Source of the DNA: Martelella limonii
GTDB lineage: Bacteria; Pseudomonadota; Alphaproteobacteria; Rhizobiales; Rhizobiaceae
Reading direction: 5' to 3'
Length of the DNA: 64,000 bases
Assembly (NCBI RefSeq): GCF_013344475.1
Contig: NZ_JABUOU010000008.1
Location: forward strand, 124,001 to 188,000
Both the position numbers and the translations under genes were made by a program. Every line of letters starts with the position of its first letter. Within the stretch, counting starts at the first letter, position 1. Below, piece after piece: positions 40,599-56,123 of the stretch. The notes under the pieces were generated by a model that saw nothing but the letters and a program-made list of their open reading frames with translations, was not told the DNA's origin and searched no databases.

Positions 40599-41033
40599 TC
40601 AATCGCCGGCGCTCCAGCGCTCCTTGTGACCGAAGCCCCTGCCATTGTCCGTGAGCTTGATCATGGCAGGAGAGAACGACCAGAGCTGCGCGCTTGCGCC
40701 GGATGCTTCCGGAAAGGCGGCCTTGAAAATCGCTTCGCCTTTCCTTGCCTCCTCACCGTCCAGCATGGCCGTCCTGCCGCTTGCCTGCAGGCCGCAGAGC
40801 CGGCTGATATCGCGGTCCTGGCCGGCGATGGTTACCGCCGCAGCACCGTGCAGCAACAAGGCGGCACCATGACGCGTCGAAGCCGATGTGAAGAACAGCA
40901 GCCGGCGCGCCGCGCGATCTGCCACATAGAAGACGCTTGCAGCCCACAGTCCATCCGCATCTGACGTCGCGACCGACATGACGTGGTGGTCGAGGAGAAA
41001 AGCATCAATCGTTCGTGAAAAGGCGATCGTCAT
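40599..41033 (-). CDS. Pyridoxamine 5-phosphate oxidase-like flavin-binding split-barrel protein
   Basis: 144 residues from the ATG at 41033, which lies 29 bases inside the end of the tandem LysR gene, so translation is probably coupled. The split-barrel pattern is clear: ISVATSDADG-like strand MSVATSDADGLWAASVFYVA, then LLFFTSASTRHGAALL and ISRLCGLQASGRTAML. These proteins bind FMN or F420/haem and usually reduce or sense small molecules. Probably a general flavin reductase-like protein. No specific role can be given. Confidence 0.78.
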   Translation of the reverse strand: MTIAFSRTIDAFLLDHHVMSVATSDADGLWAASVFYVADRAARRLLFFTSASTRHGAALLLHGAAAVTIAGQDRDISRLCGLQASGRTAMLDGEEARKGEAIFKAAFPEASGASAQLWSFSPAMIKLTDNGRGFGHKERWSAGD

Positions 41034-42903
41034 CCGCGGGCACATCCAGTTCTTTGGGGGAATGGGCAAAGGCGGCAACGAGCACCTGAATGATCGCGCG
41101 CTCCGCCGCCGAGAGCGCCCGGTCCATGGAAAAGATGACCGAAAGCTGACCGGAAATGTCTTCCGCTGCAATCGGCACGGTTTTAAGCCGCCCCTCGGCC
41201 ACATCGCGGCGTACCGAGGAGGCGGGCAGGATGGTGCAGAGCGGCGCGCGTCTTGCCATGGCAATCGCCAGCGGCAATGAACCGGCCTCGACCACCGGCT
41301 GAAGCCTGAGATTTCGCGCTCTTGCGGCCGCCATGATGCTCTGGTGGATACTCAGGTGCCGGCTGCCCATGACGAGCGGCAACTGGCAGACATCCTCAAG
41401 CGTCAACGCCTCCTTGTCGCCGAGAACGATCGCCGGATTGGCGACGACTGAAAGCGGCTCGCCCGGCCCCAGGGCGATCTTGCCAACCTTGGTGCCTGCA
41501 ACGCCGACGATGGCGAGATTGAGCGCTCCCGAGTGGACCAGATCGTTGAGCACGGCGTTGGACGCCTCTGTGATTTCAAGGCGCCAGTCGGGATTGCTGG
41601 CGTGCACCCGCGTCGCCATCGCGGCCACGCGGGCGGTCAGCGCACTGTCGTGACCGGAGCTTGGCAGCGTCCCGATGGATACGATTGCCTGAGTATGGGC
41701 CGCGATATCGTGCGACAGCCTGAGCATCGCCGCTTCCCGCGCCTCGATTTCCAGCGTGAAGGGCAGCAGCCGGTCGCCTGTCTGCGCGATCGCGCTGCCA
41801 TCGCTGCGCCGGTTGAAAAGCGCGCTTCCGATGCTTTTCTCCAGTTTGTTCAACTGGACCGAAACGGAGGGCTGGGAGAGGTTTGCAACCCGTGCCGCAG
41901 CCGAAATCCCGCCGCTGCGGCAGGCGAGATTGAAGAGCTGTATCTGCCGCATCGTTGCTTCGGGCTCGAAGACGATATTGTCTTCCGGCGCGGCGAGGTT
42001 CTCCTTCACGAGCGCAAGAAAGGTTTCGCCACGCCCGGCAAGTGCGCCGCTGATCCGCGCTCCGATCGTCGATGTGAGCGGCGGACTGAGCGGCGTCGCC
42101 TCCACATGATGCAAGCCCATGCGCGCAGAGAGCATGGAGGCGGGCATCAGAAACCGCAGATGCGGCTTCTTGAGCACGAGATCCCCGAGATCATAGGGGT
42201 CCGCATCGATGTGAAGAAGCGGGTTGCCGAGGCCGTTCACCTCCACATAGCGGGCGATCGCATTGGCAAGCGCGGGACGCATCCGGGTCACGGCAAGCTT
42301 GTCGGTCACGATATTGAGCGGTGCCTCGCCGGCGCTGGCACTGACCGAAACCCAGGGGTCCTGGTAGAGTTCATCGGAAACGATGGGGCCGCTCAGCTCT
42401 ATCTCGGGAAAGGAAAAGATATCGATCCGCGCACTCAATTCGCGCGGTATGCGCGCGCCAAGACCGCCTTCCTGCGCGGCCTCAGGCGTCCGGAAATCGG
42501 CAAAACGGCATTCGATCAGCGTCTGCGGCGCAAGGGTGCCCATGCGATGGATCGCCCTGTCGACGGCTTTCGACAGCCGGCCGATCGCAAAGGAAAGATC
42601 GATATCGACGACAAGCCTTTCCAGCGGCCCGGCCTCGACCTGACCGGCATAGTGCCGGGCCTGATGTTCCAGCTGAAGGATACGGCAGGCATCCCTGTAA
42701 AGCCAGAAAGCAGAGGGCATCATCCGCAGATGTCCGCCCTGACGCGAGAACAGGCGCATTCCGATGCGCGTTTCGAGCGTCTTCAGCGCTGTGCTGAATG
42801 TGGAGGTTCCAAGACCGTGTCCAGCCGCCGCTTCGGAAATCTTGAGGTTCTGGCAAGCCAGAACAAACTTCGCCAGCAATCTGAACTTGGTGACGCTTTC
42901 CAT
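41005..42903 (-). CDS. Tandem LysR regulator: two complete LysR modules in one polypeptide
   Basis: 632 residues from the ATG at 42903. Module 1 (about 1-317) starts with a helix-turn-helix (LACQNLKISEAAAGHGLGTS, then LKTLETRIGMRLFSRQGGHL) and an effector domain. Module 2 starts with a second helix-turn-helix from about residue 318 (MRQIQLFNLACRSGGISAAA, then SQPSVSVQLNKLEKSIGSAL) and a standard LysR substrate-binding domain (VSIGTLPSSGHDS, VVEAGSLPLAIAMAR). A single LysR is about 300 residues, so this is a fused tandem duplication. It directly follows the ammonia-lyase gene and probably controls the catabolic operon above it. Confidence 0.88.
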   Translation of the reverse strand: MESVTKFRLLAKFVLACQNLKISEAAAGHGLGTSTFSTALKTLETRIGMRLFSRQGGHLRMMPSAFWLYRDACRILQLEHQARHYAGQVEAGPLERLVVDIDLSFAIGRLSKAVDRAIHRMGTLAPQTLIECRFADFRTPEAAQEGGLGARIPRELSARIDIFSFPEIELSGPIVSDELYQDPWVSVSASAGEAPLNIVTDKLAVTRMRPALANAIARYVEVNGLGNPLLHIDADPYDLGDLVLKKPHLRFLMPASMLSARMGLHHVEATPLSPPLTSTIGARISGALAGRGETFLALVKENLAAPEDNIVFEPEATMRQIQLFNLACRSGGISAAARVANLSQPSVSVQLNKLEKSIGSALFNRRSDGSAIAQTGDRLLPFTLEIEAREAAMLRLSHDIAAHTQAIVSIGTLPSSGHDSALTARVAAMATRVHASNPDWRLEITEASNAVLNDLVHSGALNLAIVGVAGTKVGKIALGPGEPLSVVANPAIVLGDKEALTLEDVCQLPLVMGSRHLSIHQSIMAAARARNLRLQPVVEAGSLPLAIAMARRAPLCTILPASSVRRDVAEGRLKTVPIAAEDISGQLSVIFSMDRALSAAERAIIQVLVAAFAHSPKELDVPADDDRLFTND

Positions 42904-42997
42904 TCCGGCAAGTGTACTTGCGGCGTTGCGGCTTTTCAATATCGTCCCACCGGAAGGGCCGCCTCCTTTGACGGGAGGCGGCGCGATGCGTGAAAGC

Positions 42998-44611
42998 TCA
43001 ATTGAGCGCGCCGACGGCACCCTCGGCAACGGTGAGGATCTTCGCCGACGTGACCATCTCGAAGGCCGGGCGGATCTGCCGCTGCATGTAGCTGTCTTCC
43101 TCGACCAGCGGAATGACATCGGTCAGCGCCTTGTAGAGGGCGGATGTGCCCTTGCCGAGCGCAAACCCGCCGAGCTTGTCCTGCGTCAGGAAGATCGCGC
43201 GGGTGGCGAGCAGGGTCTCGACGCCGATGATCTTGTGCATGTTGTCGAGGATCTGCTGGGCCTTGCGGCACGACCAGGGCGCCATCGAAACATGGTCTTC
43301 CTGGCTGCTCTTGGTCGAGATCGAATCGGCGACCGAGGGAAAGGCGAGCGTCTTGTTTTCCGACGCCACGGCGGTGGCCGCGGTGGCGATGATGCCGTAG
43401 CCGTAGTTCAGACCGATCGGCCGGCCGGCAAGGTTCGGCGGCAGACCGTAATTCAGCGTGGTGTCGCAGAGCGCGAAGAGCCGCCGCTCGGAGATATTGC
43501 CGATCTCGACCAGCGCGATCGACAGGATATCCATGGCGAAGGCAATCGGCTCGCAGTGAAAGTTGCCGCCGGAGAGGAATTCCAGCGCACCTGCTTCGTT
43601 CCAGAAGACCAGCGGGTTGTCGGTGGCGGCATTCAGGTCGCGGGTGACAAGATTGCGGGCATGATCGAGCTGGTCGCGGCAGGAGCCATGCACCTGCGGC
43701 ATGCAGCGGAAAGAATACTGGTCCTGGACGCGGGCGTGATGGACCGGATGCAGGATGTCGTCATCGAGATGAACGGCGCGCGATGCCTCCGAGGTGCGGC
43801 GCGAGCCCTCGATCAGGCGGCGGACGTTTTCCGCGGCGTTGATCTGGCCAACCTGCTTGCGCACGGCATGGATGCGCGCATCGAAGGCCGCCTGCTCGCC
43901 GCGGATCGCCTCGAGGCTGAGGGCCGCGATGGCATCGGCCATCTTCATCATCTTCTCGGCATCGTAAAGCGTCAGCGCGGCCATGCCGGCGCAGAGACTG
44001 TTGCCGTTGATCAGCGCCAGGCAGTCCTTGGCCTGCAGCACGAATTCGATCGGCGTGATGCCGGCCTTTTCCAACGCTTCCGGCGCGCTCATGCGAACGC
44101 CTTCGAAATAGGCCTCGGCCTCCTCGTAGCCGATCATCACCGAGACCATGTGGGCAAGCGGCGCCAGGTCGCCACAGGCGCCGACCGACCCCTGGATCGG
44201 CACGACCGGATGAACGCCGCGGTTCAGCATGTCGAGCAGGCGATCGACAACCTCGATACGCAGGCCCGAGACGCCGACGCAGAAGGCATTGATGCGCACG
44301 GTCATCATGGCGCGGACCATTTCCTCCGACACAGGTTCGCCAACGCCGGACGAATGCGACAGCACGATATTCCTCTGGAACGTCTCGTTGTCGGCCTGGC
44401 TGATCGGGTAATCCTTCAGCTTGCCGACGCCGGTGTTGAAGCCATAGGTGGCAGGCGCGTTTTCCGTCAGCCAGTTTTCTTCGATATAGGCGCGCTTCTT
44501 GATGATCTCCGCACGCGCGGCTTCGGAAATTTCAACCTTCGCGCCCTCGCGGGCAACCGCGACGACCTGCTCGATGGTCAGGCTGTCGCCGTCCAGAATG
44601 ATAGTGCTCAT
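42998..44611 (-). CDS. Histidine/aromatic amino acid ammonia-lyase with Cys in the MIO triad
   Basis: 537 residues, slightly longer than HutH (about 510). Catalytic Tyr56 (TYGFNTGVG), His86 (LSHSSGVGEP, the position of His83 in Pseudomonas HutH), and QEDHVSM near the C-terminus. The self-forming MIO cofactor triad, normally Ala-Ser-Gly, is Ala145-Cys146-Gly147 (GSVGACGDLAPLAH; codon TGT at 44174-44176). It should remove ammonia from an L-amino acid to give an alpha,beta-unsaturated acid. No other hut gene is present. It lies 46 bases downstream of the N-carbamoyl-amino-acid-hydrolase-like gene, so the substrate may come from that step. Confidence 0.9.
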   Translation of the reverse strand: MSTIILDGDSLTIEQVVAVAREGAKVEISEAARAEIIKKRAYIEENWLTENAPATYGFNTGVGKLKDYPISQADNETFQRNIVLSHSSGVGEPVSEEMVRAMMTVRINAFCVGVSGLRIEVVDRLLDMLNRGVHPVVPIQGSVGACGDLAPLAHMVSVMIGYEEAEAYFEGVRMSAPEALEKAGITPIEFVLQAKDCLALINGNSLCAGMAALTLYDAEKMMKMADAIAALSLEAIRGEQAAFDARIHAVRKQVGQINAAENVRRLIEGSRRTSEASRAVHLDDDILHPVHHARVQDQYSFRCMPQVHGSCRDQLDHARNLVTRDLNAATDNPLVFWNEAGALEFLSGGNFHCEPIAFAMDILSIALVEIGNISERRLFALCDTTLNYGLPPNLAGRPIGLNYGYGIIATAATAVASENKTLAFPSVADSISTKSSQEDHVSMAPWSCRKAQQILDNMHKIIGVETLLATRAIFLTQDKLGGFALGKGTSALYKALTDVIPLVEEDSYMQRQIRPAFEMVTSAKILTVAEGAVGALN

Positions 44612-44657
44612 GTTTCTTCCTTTGAAAGATTTGATCCGGGCCGGTCACGCCGGCTTG

Positions 44658-45908
44658 TCACGATTGGTCGAGACGCATCAGCGTCTCGGCGAGAAGATTT
44701 GCGGCTGAGACGAAGTCGGCCGTATCGGTCCATTCCTCCGGACAATGGCTGCGCCCGTCCTTCGACGGGACGAAGATCATCGCGGCTGGCGCGAGCCGGG
44801 CGACGAATGCCGCATCGTGACCGGCGCCCGAAGCGAGCGGGCGGGAGGTCAGGCCAAGATGATCTGCGGCATCGGCGATCGTTGCCTGAAGACGCGGGTC
44901 GCAGGGTACGGCGAAGGTCCGGCTGAGCTGCGTCACCGAAACGGTGCAGCCTTCGGCATCCGCCGCCGCGCGTGCCATGTCCTCGGCGTCCGCCATGAAC
45001 GTGTCCATGGCGCCATCGTCCTCGGCGCGGATATCGACAATAACCTCCGCGCTACCCGGCACGACGTTGGCGCCGTTCGGTTCGACATGGACCACGCCGG
45101 TGGTCGCGGTGAAATGGCCGCGACCGGCATTGGCGAGCGTTTGCGCGCCATCGCGGATGGCAAGCATGAACCGTGCGGCCGAGAGGCCCGCATCCTGGCG
45201 CATGGGCATGGGCGCCGTGCCTGCATGAGCGGCGATGCCTTGGAACCGCACCTTGAGCCGGCCGATGCCGGCAATGCCGGTGACGATGCCGATGGGCACA
45301 TCTTCCGCCTCCAGCACCGGACCCTGTTCGATATGGATTTCGACGAAGGCACGGATATCGTCACGCAAGGGCCTGCCGAGCGCTGACGTGTCACCGCCGA
45401 TGCGGTCGATCGCTGCATCAAGCCGCTCCTGATCCGGCCCCGGAAGGGCAAGCTCGGTCGGGCCGAGCGCGCCCGCCATCCCGCGACTGCCGACGCAGGA
45501 AAGACCCCATTCGCTCGGCTCCTCGGCGAGGAAATCCACCAGCTCGATCGTATGCCGCGGCTTGTACCCGCTCGTCTTCAGCGCCCGGATGGCGGCAAGG
45601 CCGCAGACGATGCCGGCAATGCCGTCGAACCGTCCGCCGGACGGAACCGTGTCGGAGTGGGAACCGGTCATGATCACGCCGGGCTCCGACCCCTCCAGCC
45701 GTCCTATCAGATTGCCCGCAGGATCCAGCCGAACGGACAGGCCTTCCTCTTCGAAGCGTGCCTTCAGGTAGTCACGCCCCTTGAGAAACGTCGGCGTGAA
45801 CGACCGCCGCGTCCACGGCCTGTCAGGCTCCGTGATCGCCGCAAGATTGTCGAAATCGGCCTGCAGCGGCGCCGCCTCGACGGCGGCGAGGTTGATCCGC
45901 CCGCTCAT
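44658..45908 (-). CDS. M20-family zinc hydrolase, N-carbamoyl-L-amino acid hydrolase / allantoate amidohydrolase type
   Basis: 416 residues. Metal ligands in GSHSDTVPSGGRFDG, the catalytic pair EEPSEWG, HIEQGPVLE and the C-terminal His of GRSHCPEEW. A central dimerisation domain is present. HyuC/AmaB enzymes split N-carbamoyl-L-amino acids into amino acid, carbon dioxide and ammonia; close relatives act on allantoate. It overlaps the amidohydrolase gene by 4 bases (ATGA), indicating sequential steps of one pathway. The product would be a free L-amino acid, the substrate class of the lyase gene that follows. Confidence 0.9.
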   Translation of the reverse strand: MSGRINLAAVEAAPLQADFDNLAAITEPDRPWTRRSFTPTFLKGRDYLKARFEEEGLSVRLDPAGNLIGRLEGSEPGVIMTGSHSDTVPSGGRFDGIAGIVCGLAAIRALKTSGYKPRHTIELVDFLAEEPSEWGLSCVGSRGMAGALGPTELALPGPDQERLDAAIDRIGGDTSALGRPLRDDIRAFVEIHIEQGPVLEAEDVPIGIVTGIAGIGRLKVRFQGIAAHAGTAPMPMRQDAGLSAARFMLAIRDGAQTLANAGRGHFTATTGVVHVEPNGANVVPGSAEVIVDIRAEDDGAMDTFMADAEDMARAAADAEGCTVSVTQLSRTFAVPCDPRLQATIADAADHLGLTSRPLASGAGHDAAFVARLAPAAMIFVPSKDGRSHCPEEWTDTADFVSAANLLAETLMRLDQS

Positions 45909-47284
45909 CGCGCCTGTCCCGGAAGCGGGCGGGACGGCCGCACGAAGCGCCCTGCCCCAAGCGCCGCCAGCACATTGGTGCCGTCGAAGATCGCCGCGCC
46001 ACGCTGGAAGGTCGCGACCGGTGCATGCCGTATCCGCATGCCCTCATAGGGGCTCCAGCCGACGACATTGTGTCCGCTTGCGCCGGCATCGTAGATGCGC
46101 GGGCGCTCGGCGAAGACTGCGATATCGGCGTCAAGACCGACCTTCAGGCCGCCCTTTTGATCGGCGATCCTGAAGAGCCGCGCCGGATTGCCTGCCATCA
46201 GCCTCGCGGCAATCGGGAGCGGCAGGCCGCGGGCGGTGAGCCCGTCGAGGAAAAGGCTTGCCATGACCTCGAGGCCGGGCATGCCGGAGGCGTTTTCCAG
46301 CATGTTGTCGGAGGATTTCGCCTGAAGGCTCCAGGCAACGTGGTCGGTCGAGATCACCGTGACATTGCCGGCCGCCACCTGTTTCCAGAGCGCCTCGCGC
46401 TCCTTCATGGTGCGGATCGGCGGGTTGCATTTGGCGCGCCCCAGAAGGCGGGAGACGTCCTCCTCCTCCGAGAGCACCAGATAGTGGATGCAGGCCTCGA
46501 TGGTCGCCTCGAAGCCCTGCGCGCGATAGGCTGCGGCCATGTCGTAGCCGCGGCTCGCCGAGCAATGGACGATATGCGCCGGACACCCGGTCGCGGCGCC
46601 AAGCTCGTAGACCTCCGCCGTCGCAAGCATTTCGGCCACGATCGGGCGGGATGCGGAATGGGCGGCGTAATCGGTCCGCCCGGCGTCCTTCATGGCCTTG
46701 AGCCAGGTCTTCACGCATTCGTCGTTCTCGTTGTGGACGCCGGCGGCAAGGCCGGTTTTCGCCACTTCGGCGAAGGCATCATGCAGCATCGGCGTGGTGA
46801 TGCGCGGAAACCGGTTCGGGTCGGTGTCGAAGGTCGAGAACTTGAAGGCCGCCGCCCCCGCTTCCGCCATTTCGGCGATATGGGCGGCGCCATGCTGTGG
46901 GTTGATCGTGCCGTAGAGCGCGAAGTCGACGCGGGCCTGCGCGCCGGCGCTCTCGGCCTTTTCGGCGATCATCGCGCCGGTCGAAATCAGCTTGCCGGCA
47001 TCATAGGGCATGTCGACAATGGTGGTGACGCCGCCGGCTGCGGCAGAGCGCGTCGACCAGATGAAATCCTCCTGGTCCTTCTGCGAGCGCGAATGCACCT
47101 GCGGGTCGATCGCGCCGGGAAGAACGAGCGCCGCCCCGAAATCGTGGGTTTCGCGCGCGGCAGGCGGCACGCCCGTACCGATACGGGCGATCCTGCCGTC
47201 GCGGATGGCGACATGGCCGCCTTCGCTGACGCCCTCTTCCGTCACCAGCGTGCCCGTTATCACGGTATCGAAATCACTCATCAT
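45905..47284 (-). CDS. Cyclic amidohydrolase (hydantoinase/dihydroorotase/allantoinase-like) with altered metal site
   Basis: 459 residues. The usual HxH pair reads DPQVHSR, so the first His is Gln62 and only His64 remains. Carboxylated Lys148 (AFKFST), His184 (GVHNEND), His240 (HIVHCSA) and Asp314 (STDHVAW) are kept. The family opens cyclic ureides or amides such as hydantoins, dihydropyrimidines, allantoin and dihydroorotate. Coupled by a 4-base overlap to the carbamoyl-amino acid hydrolase-like gene, so a hydantoin-like substrate fits. The Gln change also occurs in some annotated dihydroorotases, so activity is not excluded. Confidence 0.85.
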   Translation of the reverse strand: MMSDFDTVITGTLVTEEGVSEGGHVAIRDGRIARIGTGVPPAARETHDFGAALVLPGAIDPQVHSRSQKDQEDFIWSTRSAAAGGVTTIVDMPYDAGKLISTGAMIAEKAESAGAQARVDFALYGTINPQHGAAHIAEMAEAGAAAFKFSTFDTDPNRFPRITTPMLHDAFAEVAKTGLAAGVHNENDECVKTWLKAMKDAGRTDYAAHSASRPIVAEMLATAEVYELGAATGCPAHIVHCSASRGYDMAAAYRAQGFEATIEACIHYLVLSEEEDVSRLLGRAKCNPPIRTMKEREALWKQVAAGNVTVISTDHVAWSLQAKSSDNMLENASGMPGLEVMASLFLDGLTARGLPLPIAARLMAGNPARLFRIADQKGGLKVGLDADIAVFAERPRIYDAGASGHNVVGWSPYEGMRIRHAPVATFQRGAAIFDGTNVLAALGAGRFVRPSRPLPGQAR

Positions 47285-47311: not shown

Positions 47312-48331
47312 TCAGGCCGTCTTTAGGCCCGGGGCCGGCTCGTCATGGGGAAAATGGCAGGCCGCGCGCTGCCCGCCCGGAGCCCGCTCGAGCCTCGGCG
47401 TCACGCTTGCGCAGATCGCCTCAGCGCGCGGGCATCTCAGCCTGAAGGCACAGCCTTCCGGCGGGCGGATGCGCGAGGGAACAGCGGCACGGGCTTCGCC
47501 GGGCGTGACCTTCTGGTCAAGATCGATCACCGGCACGGCGTCCAGCAGCGTGCGCGTATAGGGATGGGCCGGACGGTCGTAAATCGCTTCCGCGTCGCCC
47601 AGCTCGACGATGCGGCCCATATAGAGCACGCAGACGCGGTCCGAGACATTCTTCACCACCGCGAGATCGTGAGAGATGAAGATCAGCGCGAGCTGACGCT
47701 GTTCGCGGATGTCCTGCAACAGATTGATGATATGGGCCTGTACCGAGACATCGAGCGATGCGACCGGCTCGTCGCAGACGATCAGCTGCGGCTCGACGGC
47801 GAGCGCGCGGGCGATCGCAAGGCGCTGGCACTGGCCGCCGGAAAACTGATGCGGCTTGCGCCCGGCCACCTCGTTGCGGGTGAAGCCGACGGCGGCAAGC
47901 GCGGCGTCGACGCGCCGGTCGCGCTCGGCCCGCGGCACGCCCTGGATCTCGAGCCCCTCGGCAACGATATCCTCGACCTTGCGGCGCGGGTTGAAGGAGG
48001 AGACCGGGTCCTGAAAGATCATCTGCAGGTGGCGGCGCATGCGACGCATGTCGCCGGCGGACAAGCCGTTTATATCCTGGCCCGCGAAGGTGACCGCGCC
48101 TTCGGTGCTGGTGTTGGAGGCGCCGAGGAGCCGCAGCACGGCGCGCCCGATCGTCGTCTTGCCGGACCCGGATTCGCCGACCAGCCCCAATGTCTCCCCG
48201 GCGGCGACATCGATGGAGACATCATCGACAGCGACCATCGTCTTGCCCGAACGGGTAAAGCGGACCGCGAGGTTGCTGACCTTCAAAAGCGCATCGTCGC
48301 GCAGCGTATCGGCCACGGGTTGATTGCTCAT
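47312..48331 (-). CDS. Oligopeptide-type ABC importer ATPase, DppF/OppF family
   Basis: 339 residues. Walker A GESGSGKTT, signature FSGGQCQRLAIARAL, Walker B LIVCDEPVASLD, and the C-terminal Cys-containing oligopeptide/dipeptide region (AFRLRCPRAEAIC) that is common in this subfamily and can bind an iron-sulfur cluster. It pairs with the adjacent DppD-type ATPase; stop and start are next to each other. It supplies energy for the importer. Confidence 0.93.
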   Translation of the reverse strand: MSNQPVADTLRDDALLKVSNLAVRFTRSGKTMVAVDDVSIDVAAGETLGLVGESGSGKTTIGRAVLRLLGASNTSTEGAVTFAGQDINGLSAGDMRRMRRHLQMIFQDPVSSFNPRRKVEDIVAEGLEIQGVPRAERDRRVDAALAAVGFTRNEVAGRKPHQFSGGQCQRLAIARALAVEPQLIVCDEPVASLDVSVQAHIINLLQDIREQRQLALIFISHDLAVVKNVSDRVCVLYMGRIVELGDAEAIYDRPAHPYTRTLLDAVPVIDLDQKVTPGEARAAVPSRIRPPEGCAFRLRCPRAEAICASVTPRLERAPGGQRAACHFPHDEPAPGLKTA

Positions 48332-49366
48332 CTACTCGGCCCTTTCTGCTCTGGCATGCGACACCGCCAGGCCATCCTCAGCTCCGACGGGGAAGTGGCA
48401 GGCGAACCGATGCCCGCTCTCCTCGCCCTCCGTCATGGCCGGCATGTCTTCATGGCAAACCGTCTCAGCGGCGCCGCAGCGCGGGGCGAATGGACAGCCC
48501 TTCCGCTCGGCCGAGAGCGATGGCGGGGCGCCCGGAATGGTGGCAAGTTTCGTGTGGGCCGGCTGGTCCATTCGCGGCATCGCCGAAAGCAGCGCCGCCG
48601 TGTAATGGTGGCGCGGATTGCGGAACACAGCGTCGGTCCTGCCATATTCGACGATATGGCCGCCATAGAGCACCAGGAGTTCGTCGGTTCGGCCGGCCAC
48701 GATCGCCAGATTGTGGGACACGATGATCATCGACATCTGACGCTCGCGCTGCAGCGCCTGGAGAAGATCGAGGACTTCCTTCTGCACCGTCACGTCCAGT
48801 GCCGTCGTCGCCTCGTCGGCGATCAGGAGGTCGGGTTTGCAGGCAAGGGCTGCGGCGATCATGATGCGCTGCTTCATGCCGCCGGAGAAATGATGCGGAA
48901 AATAGCCGTAGCAATCCTCCGGATCGGCGATGCCGACCACGCCCAGGAGTTCGATCGCGCGGGCGCGGGCCTCCCGTTTCGAAAGTCCCAGATGGGCACG
49001 CGCGGCCTCCTCGATCTGGCGGCCGACGCGGACGAACGGATTGAGCGACGTCATCGGGTTCTGGAACACCATGCCGACCCGCCGTACGAGCAGTTCGGAA
49101 CGCTTCTGGCGCGGCAGGCCGAGCAAATCCTCGCCGTCGAACACGATCCGGCCGTCGACGCGCATGCCGTTCGGGGTGATGCCCATGATCGCCTTGATCA
49201 GCATGGATTTCCCGGCCCCGCTTTCGCCGACGATCCCGAGCGCGGTTCTGGGCCTCAGTCTGAAATCGATGCCCTCAAGCACGCGGATCGGCCCGCTGTC
49301 CGTATCCAGCGTGCAGGCAATATGGTCGACCCTCAGCAGCGGAGTTTCGTTCTGATTGTCCAACAT
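48332..49366 (-). CDS. Oligopeptide-type ABC importer ATPase, DppD/OppD family
   Basis: 344 residues. Walker A GESGAGKSML, signature FSGGMKQRIMIAAAL, Walker B LLIADEATTALDVTV, and the terminal Cys-rich region (GCPFAPRCGAAETVC). DEATTALD replaces the more common DEPTTALD. First ATPase of the pair. It follows the permease gene by one base. It serves a dipeptide/oligopeptide or other nitrogen-containing solute importer. Confidence 0.93.
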   Translation of the reverse strand: MLDNQNETPLLRVDHIACTLDTDSGPIRVLEGIDFRLRPRTALGIVGESGAGKSMLIKAIMGITPNGMRVDGRIVFDGEDLLGLPRQKRSELLVRRVGMVFQNPMTSLNPFVRVGRQIEEAARAHLGLSKREARARAIELLGVVGIADPEDCYGYFPHHFSGGMKQRIMIAAALACKPDLLIADEATTALDVTVQKEVLDLLQALQRERQMSMIIVSHNLAIVAGRTDELLVLYGGHIVEYGRTDAVFRNPRHHYTAALLSAMPRMDQPAHTKLATIPGAPPSLSAERKGCPFAPRCGAAETVCHEDMPAMTEGEESGHRFACHFPVGAEDGLAVSHARAERAE

Positions 49367-49367
49367 G

Positions 49368-50294
49368 TCACGCGCTCCGATCGCGGCTGTTGAGCCGCTT
49401 GGCGAAATAGTCGCCGACCGTGTTCAGCGAATAGACCGTCAGCACGATCGCAAGGATCGGTCCGAGGATCAGCAGCGGAAAGCGGCTGATCAGGTCCGTC
49501 GAAGCGGCGATCATCCCGCCCCAGGAGGGCGCCGGCGCGGGAACGCCGTAGCCCAGGAAGGACAGCGAGCCTTCCGTCACGATCAGGCCGGCCATCAGTG
49601 TCGGCATGATCGCCGTCAGCGCCGGCACCAGGTTCGGCAGGATTTCCTTCAGAAGAATGCGCCGGTCAGAGGCGCCCATGGCGCGTGCGGCCAGCACATA
49701 GTCGCGGCTCGACTGCGAGATCACACCGCCCTTGGCAACGCGGGCATAGGTGCCGATATCGAGAAGGCCAAGCACGAGCGTGATGGTCAAGACCGAGGAG
49801 CCGGTCACGGCGACAAAGGCGAGGACCACGAGGATCGACGGCAGCGACGACATCGTGTTGGCATAGAGGTCGACGATGCGCTCCACCATGCCGCGGTAGA
49901 AGCCCGCCAGAAGGCCGAGCATCAGCCCGAAGCCTGCCGAGATCAAGGTGGCGAACAGGACGATGGTGAGCGACGCCCGCGCGCCCCAGATGACGCGCGA
50001 GAAAATGCTGCGTCCGATTTCATCGGTTCCAAACAATCCGTTCAGCGTCCATTCCGGCGGCTGCGAAAAATCGCCGTAGGGAAAGATCGGGCTGACGAGG
50101 CCGGGAATAGAGTTCACGAAGGCTGCGGCCAGGACCAGAATGATCAGGAATACCGCAGACAGCAGTTCGAAGGCCGAGGCATCGACAAATCGCAGATGTC
50201 GGGTCCTTGGCATGGCCGCTTCAACGATCGCCGCAAGCGTCGCCTTCTCGCCTTCTTCAGGCAGGCCGGTCGGAACATGGGACGACTGGTTCAT
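49368..50294 (-). CDS. Oligopeptide-type ABC importer permease, DppC/OppC family
   Basis: 308 residues. An N-terminal cytoplasmic tail and DppC-type N-terminal segment (HLRFVDASAFELLSAVFLIIL), then about five more helices and the EAA loop DYVLAARAMGASDRRILLKE. The start overlaps the partner permease gene by 4 bases. It forms half of the membrane channel. Confidence 0.93.
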   Translation of the reverse strand: MNQSSHVPTGLPEEGEKATLAAIVEAAMPRTRHLRFVDASAFELLSAVFLIILVLAAAFVNSIPGLVSPIFPYGDFSQPPEWTLNGLFGTDEIGRSIFSRVIWGARASLTIVLFATLISAGFGLMLGLLAGFYRGMVERIVDLYANTMSSLPSILVVLAFVAVTGSSVLTITLVLGLLDIGTYARVAKGGVISQSSRDYVLAARAMGASDRRILLKEILPNLVPALTAIMPTLMAGLIVTEGSLSFLGYGVPAPAPSWGGMIAASTDLISRFPLLILGPILAIVLTVYSLNTVGDYFAKRLNSRDRSA

Positions 50295-51256
50295 GCCACA
50301 TCCACCCTGGGATCGATGATGGCGTAGCAGAGATCGACGAGAATGAAGATCACGACGAAGATGATGACGGTGAGCGAGAGGATGCCCTGCACCAGGGCAA
50401 GGTCGTGGCTCTTGACCGCGGAAAGAACGGTCCAGCCGATGCCCGGAACCGCGAAGTAGGCCTCCACGACGAAGGAGCCGGCGAGCAGATAGGTCATCGA
50501 CATGCCCACGACCGTGATGATCTGGGGCAGCGCCGGCCTCAGCACATGGCGAAACAGGATATAGCCGAGCGAAAGCCCCTTCACCCGCGCAACCTGAACG
50601 AAATCCTCCTGCAGCGCGCTCACGAATTCATTGCGCGCGACGCGGTAGAGATAGGCGCATTGATGGGCCGAGAGGCACATGACGGGCAGACAGACATACC
50701 AGAGATTGGCCAGTGGATCGTCCGAAAACGAGACCCAGCCGGTGGCGGGCAGCCAGCGCAGGATCAGCGCGAAGACATAGGACAGAAGCACGACGATGAC
50801 GAAGGTCGGCACGGCCAGCAAAAGCGATGAGACCGACCGCATCGCCGTATCCGTCAGCTTGCCGGGATGGCTTGCCGTGTACATTGCCAGCGGCACGCCG
50901 ATGAGGAAGGAAATGAGCTGTGCCAGAATGGCGATCTCGAAGGTAACCGCGGCGCGTTCCAGCATCAGTTGCAAGACCGGCTGCTGCGAAAACAGGGTCA
51001 CGCCGAAATCGCCATGGAAAACGCCGCCAAGCCAGTGCAGGTAGCGCTCGAAAACCGGCAGGTCATAGCCATATTCGGCATTGAGCCTGGCGATCTGTTC
51101 CGAGGTGGCATTTTCCCCGAGGATCAGTTGGGCCGGCGATCCAGGCGACAGGTTCGCAAGCGCGGTCGCCGCAAAGGTGACGAGGAAGAACACCGGCACA
51201 CCAGCGGCCAGCCGCATGCCGATCGCCTTTCCATAAAGCAGCAAGCCATGTCTCAA
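50291..51256 (-). CDS. Oligopeptide-type ABC importer permease, DppB/OppB family
   Basis: 321 residues from a TTG at 51256 with AAGAGGA upstream. An ATG at 51217 with GGAAAGG is an alternative start. DppB pattern with GSPAQLILGENATSEQIARL in the first periplasmic loop, about six helices and the EAA loop EFVSALQEDFVQVARVKGLS. It forms the second half of the channel. It lies 54 bases after the isocitrate-lyase-like gene on the same strand. Confidence 0.92.
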   Translation of the reverse strand: MRHGLLLYGKAIGMRLAAGVPVFFLVTFAATALANLSPGSPAQLILGENATSEQIARLNAEYGYDLPVFERYLHWLGGVFHGDFGVTLFSQQPVLQLMLERAAVTFEIAILAQLISFLIGVPLAMYTASHPGKLTDTAMRSVSSLLLAVPTFVIVVLLSYVFALILRWLPATGWVSFSDDPLANLWYVCLPVMCLSAHQCAYLYRVARNEFVSALQEDFVQVARVKGLSLGYILFRHVLRPALPQIITVVGMSMTYLLAGSFVVEAYFAVPGIGWTVLSAVKSHDLALVQGILSLTVIIFVVIFILVDLCYAIIDPRVDVA

Positions 51257-51310
51257 CGCGCCAATCCTCTTGCTTTTCCGTTTGTGCCCGGCCGGTTCAA
51301 GATGAAATCC

Positions 51311-52243
51311 TCAGACTCTCTTCCACTCGGCTTCGGCATCAAGCCAGCCGCTGTCGCGCTCCAGCAACTGCTTCTGCTCGGCCTTCGAATAGCCGCCCAT
51401 GTCGTGCTCGTCGGCATACCGGGTCGACTGCTCGGCAAAGACGCGACGGCCGTAGTCCATCATGCCGAACATCGATGCCTTTTCGAGGTAGTGCATGGTG
51501 ACGAGGTTGAAGCCGAGCTCGGCGATTTCCTCGAGCGTCACGAACGGCTTGCCGTTGACGGTCGCGACGTCGCCGAACATCTTCCAGCCCGGCAGAACCT
51601 TGGCGACCTTCCGGCATTCTTCCAGCGTGCGCAGGCCGTGGACATAGGTCATTTCGGCGCCGAGCTCTTGCGCGCGCACGCACCGCTCGATCGCATCATC
51701 GAGGCCCTTTTCGAGCTTGGATTCGGAGCGCGCGATCACAACGCAGTCCGTGCCCTCGCAGGCCTCGATGCCGGCCTTGATCTTGGCGAGCCAGAGATCC
51801 TGAGGGACGACCTCGTGGGTGACGTTGCCGTCGAGCTTGCCGGCAAGCGTCGCCTCTTCCATGGCCCGGCCGAACCGGGCATAGCCGCGCTCGTTCGGCG
51901 TGTCCTCGATCAGGATGGCGGCGGCGCCCGCCTTGGCGAGGCGCTTGCAGGTGCGATAGGCCTGTGCGACATCGCCGAAGCCGTCATCGGCGTCGATGAT
52001 CAGCGGGAGCGGCGAGTAGTCGGCGATCCGGTCGGTTGCCCAGACCAGCTCCTCCTGATTGTGCAAACCCAGATCGGGCACGCCGGACATGGAGAAGCCG
52101 AGGGATGCGCCGGAAAGCAGAATGGCCTTGAAGCCGGCCATTTCGGCGGCCTTGGCCGAATAGCAGTCCCAGACGCAAGGGGTGAAGACCTGTTCGCGGG
52201 CGAAGAGCTCGCGGAAAGTGGTTCTGGGTCGCTTGTCGAACAT
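51311..52243 (-). CDS. Isocitrate lyase / phosphoenolpyruvate mutase superfamily enzyme
   Basis: 310 residues. TIM-barrel metal site DADDGFGDVAQAY and EDTPNER. The catalytic loop KRCGH/KKCGH of isocitrate and methylisocitrate lyases is absent; the segment reads TPNERGYARFGRAM. So it belongs to a side branch, such as oxaloacetate decarboxylase, phosphonopyruvate hydrolase or an uncharacterised carbon-carbon lyase. It sits between the importer binding-protein gene and the permeases and is cotranscribed. It may process the carbon skeleton of the imported compound. Substrate unknown. Confidence 0.85.
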   Translation of the reverse strand: MFDKRPRTTFRELFAREQVFTPCVWDCYSAKAAEMAGFKAILLSGASLGFSMSGVPDLGLHNQEELVWATDRIADYSPLPLIIDADDGFGDVAQAYRTCKRLAKAGAAAILIEDTPNERGYARFGRAMEEATLAGKLDGNVTHEVVPQDLWLAKIKAGIEACEGTDCVVIARSESKLEKGLDDAIERCVRAQELGAEMTYVHGLRTLEECRKVAKVLPGWKMFGDVATVNGKPFVTLEEIAELGFNLVTMHYLEKASMFGMMDYGRRVFAEQSTRYADEHDMGGYSKAEQKQLLERDSGWLDAEAEWKRV

Positions 52244-52331
52244 GTGTGCTGGCCTTTGCAGGAAATCGTTGGTTGCACCGGACGGGCCGGCAGCGATCCG
52301 CCGGGAAGGCGGATCGCGGTTTCAGTCGTGT

Positions 52332-53948
52332 TTACTTCGATGCCGCGCAGGCGTCGTCGCAGACATAGAGATACTGTTTCTGCAGCATGCCGCCATCGGA
52401 AGGAACGATGCCGCCGGTGTTGTCGCGCAGAAGCAGGAAGCGGGTTTCGGAGCCGAAGATGTAAAGTGGCAGGTCTTCCGCCACCATCTTCTGGACCTCG
52501 TCATAGTCGGCCTTTACCTCAGCCTCGTCCATCGTGGCGCTGGCGGCCTTCAGCTCCTCATCCATCTTCGGATTATCGTACTGGCCCCAGTTGTAGATGC
52601 CGTCGGAAGCCAGATGACCGGAAATGGTCGGTTCCGCCCCATTGGCAACCAGAACGCCGCCGTCGACGCAGAGGTCGAAGTTCATCTGCTCCTTGCAGGT
52701 CTGCGTCAGCATCGCCTGATCGACGATGTTCACATCGATCTTGACGTTCTTGTACGCGCTCATGACCTGCTGGACGTAGGAGGCAAGGCGTTTCAGGTCC
52801 GAGTTGGAATAGGTCACCAGCGTCATTTCGAAGGGCTTGCCCTCCTCGGCCAGCGCGTCGAAAATCTTCTGCGCGTCTTCGGGATTGTAGTCCGGCAGCG
52901 TGTATGCCGTCTGATAGTAAGGCGAGGTCTCGGTGAAGTAATTGATCGGCGTGACATAGCCGTCGGACTGGGTATAGGCCTTCATCAGGCGGGCACGGTC
53001 GATCGCCTCGTAGAAGGCCTTGCGGGCGCGCACATCGGTGAACACGCCGGTCTTCTGGTTGAAGAAGGCGCGGTAGAGACCCGGAATCGGGATTTCGTGG
53101 GTGGCAACGCCTTCCGCATCGGCATTGGAGCCGAACTGATAGGGGTAACCCGCCATCATCGTCGCCCCGCCCTGCACGACCGTTGCAATGCGGCTATTGG
53201 TTTCCGGAATGATCTTGAAATTCAGCGTATCGAGATAGGGCCGCGGCTGATCCCAGTATTCCGGGTTGCGCTTCAGCGTCATCGAAATGCCCTGGTCCCA
53301 GCTGTCGAAGATGAACGCGCCGGCGCCGACAGGCTTGATGTCCGATGGCTGCTTCGCCGCAGCCAGCACCTTGGGGGAACCGATGAAAGGCGCCTGCTGG
53401 GCAAGCTGCGAGCCGAAATTGCGGTTGGGTTGATCAAGCGTGATGGTCAGCGTGAGCGGATCGACGATCTCGACACTCTTGTTCCAGGACGAAACGAAGG
53501 ATTGGGTCGGCGCCATGGTTTCCGGATCGGCCATCCGGTCCCAGTTGTATTTCACGGCTTCGGCATCGTAGGGCTCGCCGTCGGTGAAGGTGACGTCCGG
53601 GCGCAGCTTGAGGGTCCAGGTCTTTGCATCGTCGCTGGTGAGGTTCTCGGCCATGCCGCCCTGGATCTTGCCGTCGACGTCGAGATAGACGAGCACGCCA
53701 TAGATGGCATCACGAACGTCCATGGGGCCGCCCGGATAGGTGCCGTTGATGAGCGCAGGGTCCCAACTGGTGATATCCGAACCGTTGATGATGGTCATCT
53801 CGCCGCCGGAAATCGGCTGCTGGTCGTCCGCCAAGGCCCTGGTCGCTCCTGAAATCGCAGGGACTGCCGCGGCAAGCGCGAGTGCGATCATGGCCACCCG
53901 GCCCGAGCTCAGGAAAGTGCCGCTAAGGCGCTTTGAGTTGAATTGCAT
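52332..53948 (-). CDS. Oligopeptide-type ABC importer solute-binding protein (family 5)
   Basis: 538 residues from the ATG at 53948 with GGAGAAAC upstream; a TTG five codons earlier is the alternative. Signal peptide with core VAMIALALAAAVPAISGA, ending RALA. Solute-binding family 5 pattern: LTSDDAKTWTLKLRPDVTFT, then DGEPYDAEAVKYNWDRM. These proteins bind di- or oligopeptides, nickel, opines and other nitrogenous ligands. The surrounding hydrolases point to an unusual amino-acid derivative. The other importer parts follow downstream after the isocitrate-lyase-like gene. Confidence 0.92.
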   Translation of the reverse strand: MQFNSKRLSGTFLSSGRVAMIALALAAAVPAISGATRALADDQQPISGGEMTIINGSDITSWDPALINGTYPGGPMDVRDAIYGVLVYLDVDGKIQGGMAENLTSDDAKTWTLKLRPDVTFTDGEPYDAEAVKYNWDRMADPETMAPTQSFVSSWNKSVEIVDPLTLTITLDQPNRNFGSQLAQQAPFIGSPKVLAAAKQPSDIKPVGAGAFIFDSWDQGISMTLKRNPEYWDQPRPYLDTLNFKIIPETNSRIATVVQGGATMMAGYPYQFGSNADAEGVATHEIPIPGLYRAFFNQKTGVFTDVRARKAFYEAIDRARLMKAYTQSDGYVTPINYFTETSPYYQTAYTLPDYNPEDAQKIFDALAEEGKPFEMTLVTYSNSDLKRLASYVQQVMSAYKNVKIDVNIVDQAMLTQTCKEQMNFDLCVDGGVLVANGAEPTISGHLASDGIYNWGQYDNPKMDEELKAASATMDEAEVKADYDEVQKMVAEDLPLYIFGSETRFLLLRDNTGGIVPSDGGMLQKQYLYVCDDACAASK

Positions 53949-54049
53949 TGCCTGTTTCTCCAATCTCTCCGCCCTTGAACAGAACGGATATTTGTTCCCG
54001 TTGTTATTTTATATGCGGCGTGAATCACCCGCCGTTCATGCACTTGATT

Positions 54050-54631
54050 TTACTGGCTTTCGCCGGCCTCGTCCCTCCATCTTCTGACGGCCGGATGGGT
54101 GATATCGAAGAGGTCGAGTGCCCGGCCGACACTCTGGCTGATGATGTCGTCGATGGTCTTCGGCTTGGTATAGAAGCCCGGAACCGGCGGCATGATGATC
54201 CCACCGCTGCGCGTTACCTGATCCATCAGCGCGATGTGCCCGGCATGAAAGGGCGTCTCGCGCAGCATCAGCACCAGCCGGCGCCGTTCCTTGAGGCACA
54301 CATCGGCAGCCCGGGTGATCAGATCGTCGGCATAGCAATGGGCGATTCCGCTCATCGTCTTCACCGAGCAGGGCGCGACCAGCATGCCGTCCGAGCGGAA
54401 CGACCCGGAGGCGATCGCCGCCCCGATATCGCGGTGGCTGTAGGTGCGATCGGCAAGCGCGCGGATGTCGTCGGCGCTCATGTCGATGCCCTCTTCCTGC
54501 GCCGTACGGATCGCAGACGGCGATATCACCAGATGGGTCTCGACGTCCTCGATCGCGCGCAACATTTCGAGTGCGCGAATGCCGTAACACGTGCCGGAAG
54601 CCCCGGTGATGGCGACGATCAATCGGCGCAA
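54050..54631 (-). CDS. ubiX: UbiX-type flavin prenyltransferase
   Basis: 193 residues using the TTG at 54631, which has GGGAGAGAC upstream and gives the standard N-terminus (LIVAITGASGTCYGIRAL); longer in-frame forms add unrelated residues. Family motifs APCSVKTMSGIA, DDLITRAADVCLKERRRLVL and RETPFH are present. UbiX joins dimethylallyl phosphate to FMN, giving the prenylated flavin cofactor needed by UbiD. It is placed directly downstream of the ubiD-type gene (67-base gap), so the pair is dedicated to one decarboxylation. Confidence 0.9.
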   Translation of the reverse strand: MRRLIVAITGASGTCYGIRALEMLRAIEDVETHLVISPSAIRTAQEEGIDMSADDIRALADRTYSHRDIGAAIASGSFRSDGMLVAPCSVKTMSGIAHCYADDLITRAADVCLKERRRLVLMLRETPFHAGHIALMDQVTRSGGIIMPPVPGFYTKPKTIDDIISQSVGRALDLFDITHPAVRRWRDEAGESQ

Positions 54632-54698
54632 TGGTCTCTCCCGCAGCACGCGTTCCGTGCGCTGTTGCCGGAAAATCCGGGAGTGGCTGCAGATGTTT

Positions 54699-56123
54699 TC
54701 ATGGCAGGAGATCCGGACGGATTTCGGCAAGCAGATCCTGCATGCGCTGATAGGCCTCCAACGGTGGAAGCGCCCTGTCGTAGCCCTGGCGCCGATCACC
54801 GGCCTTCATCGTGGCGTCGTAGCCGATCTTGGCAACCACGCCGCCATCCTCCTGCGCTTCCGAGCGGTCGGCCGGCAGGCCGTCGACAATCAGGACATCG
54901 CGCTCGGCCCGCATGCGGGTCATCTTGGCGAGCTCGACCGCGGCGAGGTCCCAGGGGTCGACATCATCGTCGACGATGGTGACATTCTTGATGATGCTGA
55001 CCGCGCCCCAGCAGATCGCCATGGCGCGCCGCGCCTGTCCGGGCCGGGGCGAGCGGAGCTGCACGATCACATCATTTCTGCCCGATCCCGATGCGGTGAC
55101 GGCCACCTCGCCGACATTCTGCAGCGATCGCGAGAGCTGGGCTTTGAGCGATGCCGCGATCGGCACGGCGGCGATGTAGATATGCTCGGCGTGGTAGCCG
55201 GGCTCGATCACCTGGAACATGGCATCGGTACGATTGGTGCGCGCCTGGAAGGTGCAGATCAGACCGCTGCCGTAATCTTCATACATGCCGTGATATTCCG
55301 ATACCGGCCCTTCGACATGAGCCCGATCGGAATGGATCAGGCCTTCGAGCACGATCTCGGCTTCGGCCGGCACCAGCAGATCGGACGTGATCGTCTTGGT
55401 CATGCGCACCGGGGCACCGAGGAGCGCGCCGGCATTCTCCATCTCGTCATCGCCAAGGCCGAGATAGAGGCACGCGGCAAGCTGAATGGCCGGATGCGCG
55501 CCGAGGACCACGGCAAAGGGAAGCGGCCTGCCCATAGCCGCGGCCTTGCGCGCCATGATCGCCAGATGGTGGTTCGGCGCAATCCCGATCATCGCCTCGC
55601 TGCCGCCGAGAACCTTGAGGCGCGCATAGGACGCATTGCCAAGCCCGGCTTCCGGATCCTTCGCGATGATCATGCCGGCGGTGATATAGGGCGCGGTTTC
55701 GCGCTCGAAGAAGTACGGGACCGGCAGGCCAGACAGGACATTTTCGCGCACGACAACCTGCTGGACCGGCGCATCCTGCACGACCTCCGGCTTGATGGGC
55801 TGGCGTACGGCATCCGTCAGCGTCGCCTGGATCTCGTGGACATCAACGCCCAGCGCCATGGCGATCCGCGCGCGGCTCGTCAGCAGATTGCCGAACAACC
55901 TTATCTGCGATCCCTCCACCCGCTCGAAGCGCACCGCGGCGCGGTCATCGGCAAGCGAGAGCATGGCGGAAACGTCGAACTTGGCGCTCACGGGCTTTTC
56001 GACGACGAGGAGTTCACCCCTGCCCTCAAGGTCGTCCAGCATCGCCCTGCATGACTGATCGCCCCCGAGGCTGTTACCTGCCGCAAGGTTGGGGGATCGG
56101 TTTAGTTCCAACAAAGATTTCAC
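54699..56123 (-). CDS. UbiD-family prenylated-FMN decarboxylase
   Basis: 474 residues from a GTG at 56123 with GAAGGACC upstream. The family core begins near AMLDDLEGRGELLVV, so a later start (ATG at 56042) is possible. UbiD motifs: IGIAPNHHLAIMARKA, EGPVSEYHGMY with the catalytic Glu, and MTRMRAERD. These enzymes reversibly (de)carboxylate aromatic or alpha,beta-unsaturated acids. The ammonia-lyase in the same cluster makes alpha,beta-unsaturated acids, which would fit, but no substrate can be read from the sequence. First gene of the minus-strand cluster. Confidence 0.9.
   Translation of the reverse strand: MKSLLELNRSPNLAAGNSLGGDQSCRAMLDDLEGRGELLVVEKPVSAKFDVSAMLSLADDRAAVRFERVEGSQIRLFGNLLTSRARIAMALGVDVHEIQATLTDAVRQPIKPEVVQDAPVQQVVVRENVLSGLPVPYFFERETAPYITAGMIIAKDPEAGLGNASYARLKVLGGSEAMIGIAPNHHLAIMARKAAAMGRPLPFAVVLGAHPAIQLAACLYLGLGDDEMENAGALLGAPVRMTKTITSDLLVPAEAEIVLEGLIHSDRAHVEGPVSEYHGMYEDYGSGLICTFQARTNRTDAMFQVIEPGYHAEHIYIAAVPIAASLKAQLSRSLQNVGEVAVTASGSGRNDVIVQLRSPRPGQARRAMAICWGAVSIIKNVTIVDDDVDPWDLAAVELAKMTRMRAERDVLIVDGLPADRSEAQEDGGVVAKIGYDATMKAGDRRQGYDRALPPLEAYQRMQDLLAEIRPDLLP

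Follow-up and report, generated by a model that had tools for sequence, protein, structure and literature searches.

Which compound does a bacterium degrade with a gene cluster that joins two hydantoin-type hydrolases, an ammonia-lyase, and a UbiD/UbiX pair, and in which order do these enzymes act? The question arises from positions 40599–56123 of a 64,000-nucleotide stretch of Martelella limonii DNA (assembly GCF_013344475.1, contig NZ_JABUOU010000008.1, positions 124,001–188,000), here called the window, whose own numbering is used throughout. The window lies on contig 39 of a 4.5 Mb genome with a completeness of 100 (G000). Searches of the window's open reading frames (ORFs) with Pfam and NCBIfam profiles revealed 13 genes between these positions, all on the minus strand. 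An earlier note on this DNA had described a one-strand cluster with small gaps and 4-base overlaps. All the genes that it named were found; the two permease genes overlap by 4 bases, as do the amidohydrolase and M20 hydrolase genes, and the widest gap, from the UbiX gene to the solute-binding protein gene, is 101 bases with the chosen starts. We estimate with a probability of about 0.55 that the cluster imports and degrades a histidine-related imidazole amino acid, probably a ring-substituted one, which would pass through the lyase, the UbiD enzyme, and hydrolases of the ErtD and ErtE types to glutamate.

The cluster hydrolases match the ErtD and ErtE models

The amidohydrolase gene (45905–47284) scored 744.5 bits with the model of ErtD, the hydantoin-5-propionate amidohydrolase (NF058538, cut-off 600), compared with 783 and 776 bits for two ErtDs that relatives carry in their ergothioneine loci. 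The M20-family gene (44658–45908) scored 554.7 bits with that of ErtE, the N-carbamoyl-L-glutamate amidohydrolase (NF058540, cut-off 520). ErtD and ErtE also exceeded the cut-offs in A. vitis and E. canadensis, and ErtD did so in L106, a further locus. The ergothioneine loci of relatives contain genes for ergothionase (ErtA), ErtD, ErtE, thiohydantoin desulfurase (ErtC), and thiourocanate hydratase (ErtB), some together with importer genes; ergothionase was named here from its best solved match (6S7J) and its neighbour genes, NCBIfam giving only histidine ammonia-lyase (HAL) models below cut-off. The earlier note had set aside the hydantoin-5-propionate/N-carbamoylglutamate branch of histidine or ergothioneine breakdown for want of a urocanase-type gene, and the ErtD and ErtE scores make this branch the better frame. 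Its other alternative, allantoin degradation, was rejected: the AllB model gave 287.5 bits against a cut-off of 357.85, and AllC gave 250.6 against 597.75.

If ErtD and ErtE of the cluster catalyse the same steps as those of ergothioneine breakdown, genomes with both pathways should tolerate the loss of one copy. Among genomes with an ergothionase and no cluster, 29 of 30 have an ErtD at 53–62% identity. This count combines 23 of 24 genomes in a 397-genome sample of the order, in which G246 lacks ErtD, with six of six in the genus. In these six, the ergothionase call rests on weak lyase matches adjoining ErtD and a further urocanase; two of them were read as whole loci, and one has its ErtD split over two contigs. 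G078, whose ergothionase is fragmentary, was left out of the count. In the six genomes with an ergothionase and a cluster ErtD, a second ErtD was present in two (UR115 and Devosia RYN_483; G074 and G081) and missing in four (M. alba, Shinella, D. soli, and Devosia Leaf420; G071, G069, G079, and G068). The difference between 29/30 and 2/6 gave p = 0.0012 in Fisher's test, which treats genomes that are not independent. When read, the ergothioneine loci of M. alba (L096), D. soli, and Leaf420 (see also L139 and L140) contained ErtA, ErtB, and ErtC and lacked ErtD and ErtE; the only close ErtD in the genomes of L096, L139, and L140 is the cluster copy. The mirror case was seen in R. leguminosarum-type genomes, four of four of which have a cluster without ErtD and ErtE, yet carry an ErtD adjoining ergothionase, and a 45-residue ErtD remnant precedes the lyase gene in two of these clusters (L079/L099 and G062:C35). 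This loss pattern across genomes supports the prediction that the cluster ErtD and ErtE carry out the reactions of ergothioneine breakdown.

In the earlier note, the hydantoinase, carbamoylase, lyase, and UbiD were proposed to act in this order, that is, an imported hydantoin would be opened and decarbamoylated, the lyase would deaminate the resulting amino acid, and UbiD would decarboxylate the acrylate. All the genes for such an order are present, and the synthesis of bagremycin and ferroverdin offers a precedent for a lyase acting with UbiD and UbiX. However, the hydrolases score as ErtD and ErtE and therefore should end at glutamate, which would then go to the lyase and is not an expected substrate for an enzyme with a histidine-lyase-type pocket. 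Moreover, ErtD and ErtE were lost from the cluster in some genomes that have the ergothioneine copies, and UbiD, ErtD, and ErtE occur together in a locus without a lyase (described below). We regard an order that starts with the hydrolases as very unlikely, and the proposed sequence is probably wrong. ErtD and ErtE probably end the route, after the lyase and UbiD, because of their model scores, the loss pattern, and the ErtD found beside ergothionase in the R. leguminosarum-type genomes.

Conservation of an eleven-gene unit

A genome scan with the isocitrate lyase/phosphoenolpyruvate mutase (PEPM) superfamily protein of the cluster found 33 loci, in 28 of which the encoded protein has an identity to it of 77% or higher. 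The eleven-gene run from UbiD through the lyase is complete, with order and strand unchanged, in 17 of the 28 close loci, in Martelella, Rhizobium, Agrobacterium (A. vitis), Devosia, and others, and plasmids of A. vitis and Allorhizobium bear the same unit. The co-occurrence that the earlier note had suggested looking for is thus present, and its catabolic unit of importer, cyclic amidohydrolase, carbamoylase, ammonia-lyase, and UbiD/UbiX is conserved. The remaining 11 loci run into contig ends (L059 and L070), are broken (L061), gave no detectable UbiX (L080), are rearranged (L081 and L082), have lost ErtD and ErtE (L077, L078, L079, and L084), or lack UbiD and the lyase (L083). A DUF2390/TIGR02444 protein lies between the ATPase and the amidohydrolase in several relatives and is missing from the window. 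An aminotransferase is present in the A. vitis, R. leguminosarum-type, and D. enhydra loci, that of R. johnstonii matching an aromatic aminotransferase model.

The minimal relatives L102 and L103 (G366 and G430) keep UbiD, UbiX, ErtD, ErtE, the lyase, and the small flavin-type protein and lack the PEPM protein and the Opp importer, the reverse of the importer–PEPM unit of L083. These loci would fit two separate functions, in which the importer and the PEPM protein handle a hydroxy or sugar acid and the rest is an unrelated set for hydantoin-5-propionate salvage; L086, a distant PEPM relative, lies amid phosphogluconate dehydrogenase and hexonate epimerase genes. Against such a division, the eleven-gene order is shared by 17 of 28 loci from several genera, and we consider two separate functions quite unlikely. 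L083 itself is on a Chloroflexi-binned contig with importer genes and a PEPM protein 77% identical to that of the window; it has likely been misbinned or transferred.

The lyase and the absence of urocanase

The lyase gene (42998–44611) encodes an aromatic amino acid lyase of the 4-methylideneimidazole-5-one (MIO) type (PF00221, 562 bits). It met the broad HAL-like model PRK09367 (556.9 bits, cut-off 524) and stayed below the cut-off of the HutH equivalog TIGR01225 (530.7 vs 539.15). An alignment to 1GKM showed that the residues of the HAL active-site pocket, with roles as we take them to be, are kept. Ergothionase was rejected as its identity, since it is 42–44% identical to HutH vs 23–25% to two ErtAs. 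As the MIO triad, the window, M. alba (L002 and L058), and G366 and G430 (L102 and L103) have Ala-Cys-Gly, and 25 of 27 aligned rows as well as L092, L093, and L104 have Ala-Ser-Gly; we presume that the change to Ala-Cys-Gly is tolerated in HAL.

The active-site loop reads GVGKLKD in 26 of 27 rows of window-type lyases and in all five of a further set. The pattern GVGxxKD also occurs in two rhizobial ErtAs, in the ergothionase 6S7J of the PDB, and in L106/L107, as GVGAMKD or GVGWNKD in ergothionases and GVGSQKD in L106/L107, whose lyase lacks the MIO glycine. At this loop, FGKLA[SNT] was present in all 28 HutH-type loci (L003–L030, the best matches in relatives). The GVGxxKD loop hints at a ring-substituted substrate.

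Urocanase (PF01175) was absent from G000, although it is present in 12 of the 13 genomes sampled from the genus, and a genome search of G000 gave neither an ergothionase nor a second lyase of the superfamily. Among the 27 further cluster genomes (that of L083 was left out of these scans), PF01175 was lacking in four, namely the isolates Devosia Root685 and D. enhydra and two metagenome-assembled genomes (MAGs), or in five of 28 with G000. Therefore, the route of these genomes to hydantoin-5-propionate, if that is the intermediate, does not use the urocanase family. No match to ErtC was found among the cluster genes, to which the ErtC search of G000 was confined.

These findings bear on plain histidine use, in which the lyase would be the histidine ammonia-lyase of the genome and the remaining enzymes would handle urocanate in a variant hut pathway. 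The retained HAL residues and the lack in G000 of another lyase of the family and of urocanase are in its favour. In contrast, R. johnstonii 3841 and M. alba have, besides the cluster, a HutH-like lyase beside urocanase, and the cluster lyase lacks the FGKLA[SNT] of HutH-type loci and has the GVGxxKD loop in common with ergothionases. We give such a variant hut pathway little credence.

A UbiD clade linked to ErtD and ErtE

The UbiD-family gene (54699–56123) encodes a putative prenylated flavin mononucleotide (prFMN) enzyme. The N, Rift, and C domains of the family were all matched (PF01977, PF20696, and PF20695), TIGR00148 gave 271 bits (cut-off 245), and the motifs NHH and EGPVSEYHG are present; no NCBIfam equivalog model covered this protein over its cut-off. 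The adjacent UbiX-family flavin prenyltransferase gene (54050–54631; NF004685, 259 bits, cut-off 188; TIGR00421 over cut-off) ends at 54050 and likely starts at TTG 54631, and another ORF at this site (54036–54590) matched nothing in Pfam or NCBIfam.

Among the records of a plasmid collection, 11 contain a UbiD related to that of the window (E 1e-70 or better), and ErtD lies within about 10 kb in 10 of them; the eleventh is R. tropici, with an ErtE remnant. In a UbiD tree of 25 rows, the 18 rows from ErtD/ErtE loci formed one clade with support of 100/100, leaving seven outside. These 18 rows represent 17 different genes, because WIN and L129 are one gene; L124 (R. johnstonii) and L113 (R. tropici) are counted as ErtD-linked although all that is left in their loci is a remnant of ErtD or ErtE, the partial UbiDs L135 and L138 were omitted, and the L127 row consists of the last 480 residues. 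NHH and VSE motifs are common to the 18 clade rows and were not found in the seven outside UbiDs.

The lyases beside the clade UbiDs are of three kinds: the MIO-type of the window group, the MIO-less type of L106 and L107, and a third type (R. jaguaris and R. tropici; L112), which has a different sequence at the MIO site and matches PF00221 in R. jaguaris. Ten genomes of the order sample have ErtD without ergothionase. Four of these carry the window-type cluster (G000, G294, G366, and G430), and in G400, G114, and G151, ErtD stands beside UbiD and a divergent lyase (L106, L107, and L144), that of L144 being 79% identical within the MIO-less group of L106 and L107. ErtD is accompanied by ErtB and ErtC, without UbiD, in G300 (L109), G352 (L108), and another locus of G430 (L105); G418 was left out of the locus reading. 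ErtD loci with ErtB mostly lack UbiD (L095, L097, L098, L105, L108, L109, L114–L116, L142, and L143), and among the UbiD loci with ErtD that were read, a urocanase-type gene occurs only in Thalassospira. Roseobacter loci combine ErtD, UbiD, genes of a tripartite ATP-independent periplasmic (TRAP) transporter, a lyase, and an aminotransferase; L093 also has an ErtE call, and L092 a GlcD-like oxidase. In E. canadensis, genes for a major facilitator superfamily (MFS) carrier, a regulator, ErtD, ErtE, UbiD, and UbiX lie side by side, and no lyase was found in the 19 kb read around this locus.

The closest solved relative of the window UbiD is 6H6V, which we take to be HmfF, a furan-dicarboxylate decarboxylase. 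The conserved UbiD Arg and Glu positions are kept in an alignment to 6H6V inspected by eye. Furan dicarboxylate was rejected as the substrate, on the weak ground that His296 and Arg304, presumably specific to HmfF, seemed by eye not to align with His and Arg in the window protein. UbiD enzymes are described in abstracts as reversible (de)carboxylases, and when PA0254/HudA was given imidazole-4-carboxylate, a small amount of imidazole was produced, and the enzyme also forms a covalent prFMN–imidazole adduct (PMC7976604).

The kept catalytic positions, the relationship to 6H6V, this slight activity and covalent binding of HudA, and the Thalassospira locus, where UbiD sits with ErtB and ErtC, are all consistent with UbiD being an ordinary decarboxylase. 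It would then take a ring carboxylate off a carboxylated imidazole, or off the lyase product, and an enzyme outside the cluster or the PEPM-family protein would make hydantoin-5-propionate. This is possible, if on the unlikely side: the assembly of the window and two cluster isolates have no urocanase-family protein, and the E. canadensis locus, with UbiD, UbiX, ErtD, ErtE, a regulator, and the MFS carrier, leaves no known hydration enzyme.

Proposed route and points against it

In the route via lyase and UbiD to glutamate, the family-5 ATP-binding cassette (ABC) importer would bring in the compound, either as such or conjugated, for release or trimming by the PEPM-family enzyme. The MIO-type lyase would remove the amine to give a urocanate-like α,β-unsaturated acid, on which UbiD, with prFMN from UbiX, would act to yield hydantoin-5-propionate, standing in for the urocanase-type hydratase (and the desulfurase) of ergothioneine breakdown. 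ErtD would then open the hydantoin to N-carbamoyl-L-glutamate, and ErtE would convert this to L-glutamate, CO2, and ammonia.

The UbiD step can be read in two ways, conservatively as removal of a ring carboxylate or boldly as hydration of a ring-oxidised urocanate. On the bold reading, the UbiD clade associated with ErtD and ErtE would hydrate a compound such as 2-oxo-urocanate directly to hydantoin-5-propionate instead of performing a simple decarboxylation, which we consider doubtful. The 2-oxo-urocanate for such a hydration would be supplied from 2-oxohistidine by the MIO-type lyase, or from a betaine analogue by the MIO-less lyases. Several other substrates were considered and no support was found for them, namely xanthine breakdown, histidine opines (for example, cucumopine), pseudopaline-type metallophores, willardiine, and Amadori compounds.

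A number of observations weigh against the route from an imidazole amino acid to glutamate. With respect to UbiD, the Glu and Arg positions are kept, and therefore a non-decarboxylating step is not indicated by the sequence; the outside UbiDs are on long branches of unsure placement. The Thalassospira locus consists of ErtD, ErtE, ErtC, ErtB, UbiD, and a TRAP transporter, and therefore UbiD does not replace the hydratase there. A urocanase-family gene lies elsewhere in 23 of the 27 further cluster genomes and could act in trans. As for the linkage, R. tropici retains just the ErtE remnant, L107 gave no ErtE, the GVGxxKD loop is missing from the third lyase type, and L083 has the importer–PEPM unit without UbiD or the lyase. 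In the loss test, two of the six genomes keep both ErtD copies, the cluster ErtD of Shinella G069 is in pieces, which weakens that loss case, and internal stops in the D. soli ergothionase and in one R. leguminosarum-type copy weaken those cases. Within the route itself, the substrate, what the PEPM protein does, what the lyase produces, and how UbiD acts chemically are inferred.

Importer, PEPM enzyme, regulator, and neighbouring genes

The importer genes encode an extracellular solute-binding protein of family 5 (SBP_bac_5; 52332–53948 in an ORF that opens at 53963; PF00496, 225 bits), permeases of the OppB type (50291–51256) and OppC type (49368–50294; both PF00528), and ATPases of the OppD type (48332–49366) and OppF type (47312–48331; both PF00005 and PF08352).

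The PEPM superfamily gene (51311–52243; PF13714) lies between the solute-binding protein and the permeases. Its product was rejected as an isocitrate or methylisocitrate lyase, since PrpB gave 135.3 bits against a cut-off of 354.4 and the K-R-C-G-H motif, whose Cys we take to be catalytic in the (methyl)isocitrate lyases, is missing; an alignment showed no such motif in the window protein and 30 close relatives. Sugar-acid genes (idonate dehydrogenase, GarR-like, and 2-hydroxyacid dehydrogenase) lie near some relatives. PEPM-family genes also occur in tandem, three in L087 and two in L088 (Clostridia MAGs) and two in L090 (Spirochaetales), followed by a binding-protein-like gene in L087 and a permease-like gene in L088.

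The tandem LysR genes of the earlier note proved to be a single gene (41005–42903 in an ORF that opens at 43119; PF00126 and PF03466): the two LysR helix-turn-helix stretches are there, in one fused protein of likely 632 amino acids. Homologues of this fused regulator are present in 24 of the 28 close loci, and others, 27–28% identical to it over about 600 amino acids, lie beside the UbiD genes of E. canadensis, R. jaguaris, and R. tropici. The flavin protein of the note is also present, as a small PNPOx/YhbP-like protein (likely 40599–41033; PF01243, 34.4 bits with the query 40599–41036). Such a protein adjoins the cluster in L100, L102, and L103 too. It occurs beside the cluster in the same four genomes as the Ala-Cys-Gly triad (the window, M. 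alba, G366, and G430), many other loci ending before that place. We can only guess at its role, which might be prFMN maturation or alkene reduction; PhdC, a known prFMN maturase, is described in PMC13040415 as a distant HpaC-like flavin reductase, and by analogy the small protein may mature prFMN.

Judged from the spacing, one transcript for the whole cluster is plausible. A promoter scan gave two sites against a shuffle mean of 2.6, that is, no excess, and terminator-like sites numbered 19 against 11.0 in shuffles on both strands. Genes for SMP-30/gluconolactonase, a tartronate-semialdehyde-reductase-like protein, and a 2-hydroxyacid dehydrogenase converge on the cluster from the plus strand (37509–40505). 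No counterparts of these three sugar-acid-type genes were seen in the 15 kb past the M. alba cluster (L100), and the three genes were therefore left out of the cluster. Upstream of UbiD and divergent from it (56320–59941) lie genes for a PAS histidine kinase, a response regulator, and a receiver-GGDEF-EAL protein.

Comparison with known systems

No description of the cluster was found in the literature on UbiD/prFMN, ergothioneine, hydantoin-5-propionate, and 2-oxohistidine, our coverage of which is short on subscription journals. By the curated family models, bacterial ergothioneine and imidazole routes converge on hydantoin-5-propionate, and the pattern described here suggests a further entry with prFMN chemistry where the known routes have a urocanase-type hydratase. 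Should UbiD act on an imidazole acid, a natural substrate class would be added to the prFMN family, and if it hydrates instead of decarboxylating, the reaction would be new for this cofactor. With the small E. canadensis locus, which has one carrier beside UbiD, UbiX, ErtD, and ErtE, four proteins would suffice to address this question.

In the bagremycin/ferroverdin cassette (tyrosine ammonia-lyase, UbiD, and UbiX), the lyase product is handed to UbiD; this cassette is biosynthetic and has no hydantoin hydrolases. The window proteins matched its BagN/FevL, BagA/FevW, and BagM/FevK families below cut-off, and far below. Histidine utilization (hutHUI) has the HAL-like lyase in common with the cluster, which differs in its active-site loop and in having neither urocanase nor imidazolonepropionase. 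The S-methyl thiourocanate/thiohydantoin variant (NF058531 and NF058532; L115 on pAt of A. tumefaciens Ach5) shares an ErtD over cut-off, an ErtE-like hydrolase, and a HAL-like lyase, but unlike the cluster it has a urocanase-type hydratase and a desulfurase and no UbiD. L115 also encodes a glutathione S-transferase (3086–3697) and a molybdopterin S/N-oxide reductase (6653–8983), which perhaps act on oxidised substrates. A bacterial route from oxidised ergothioneine, the ergothioneine sulfonate catabolic pathway, was reportedly described by Yan, Huang, and Zhang (ACS Catal., 2022), and this published pathway may overlap with the cluster or one of its related loci. With ergothioneine utilization (ErtA–ErtE), the cluster shares ErtD, ErtE, and the lyase superfamily, and presumably the end product glutamate. 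In contrast to that system, it has a MIO-type lyase instead of the MIO-less ergothionase and lacks ErtB and ErtC, and it adds UbiD/UbiX, the PEPM enzyme, and the Opp importer.

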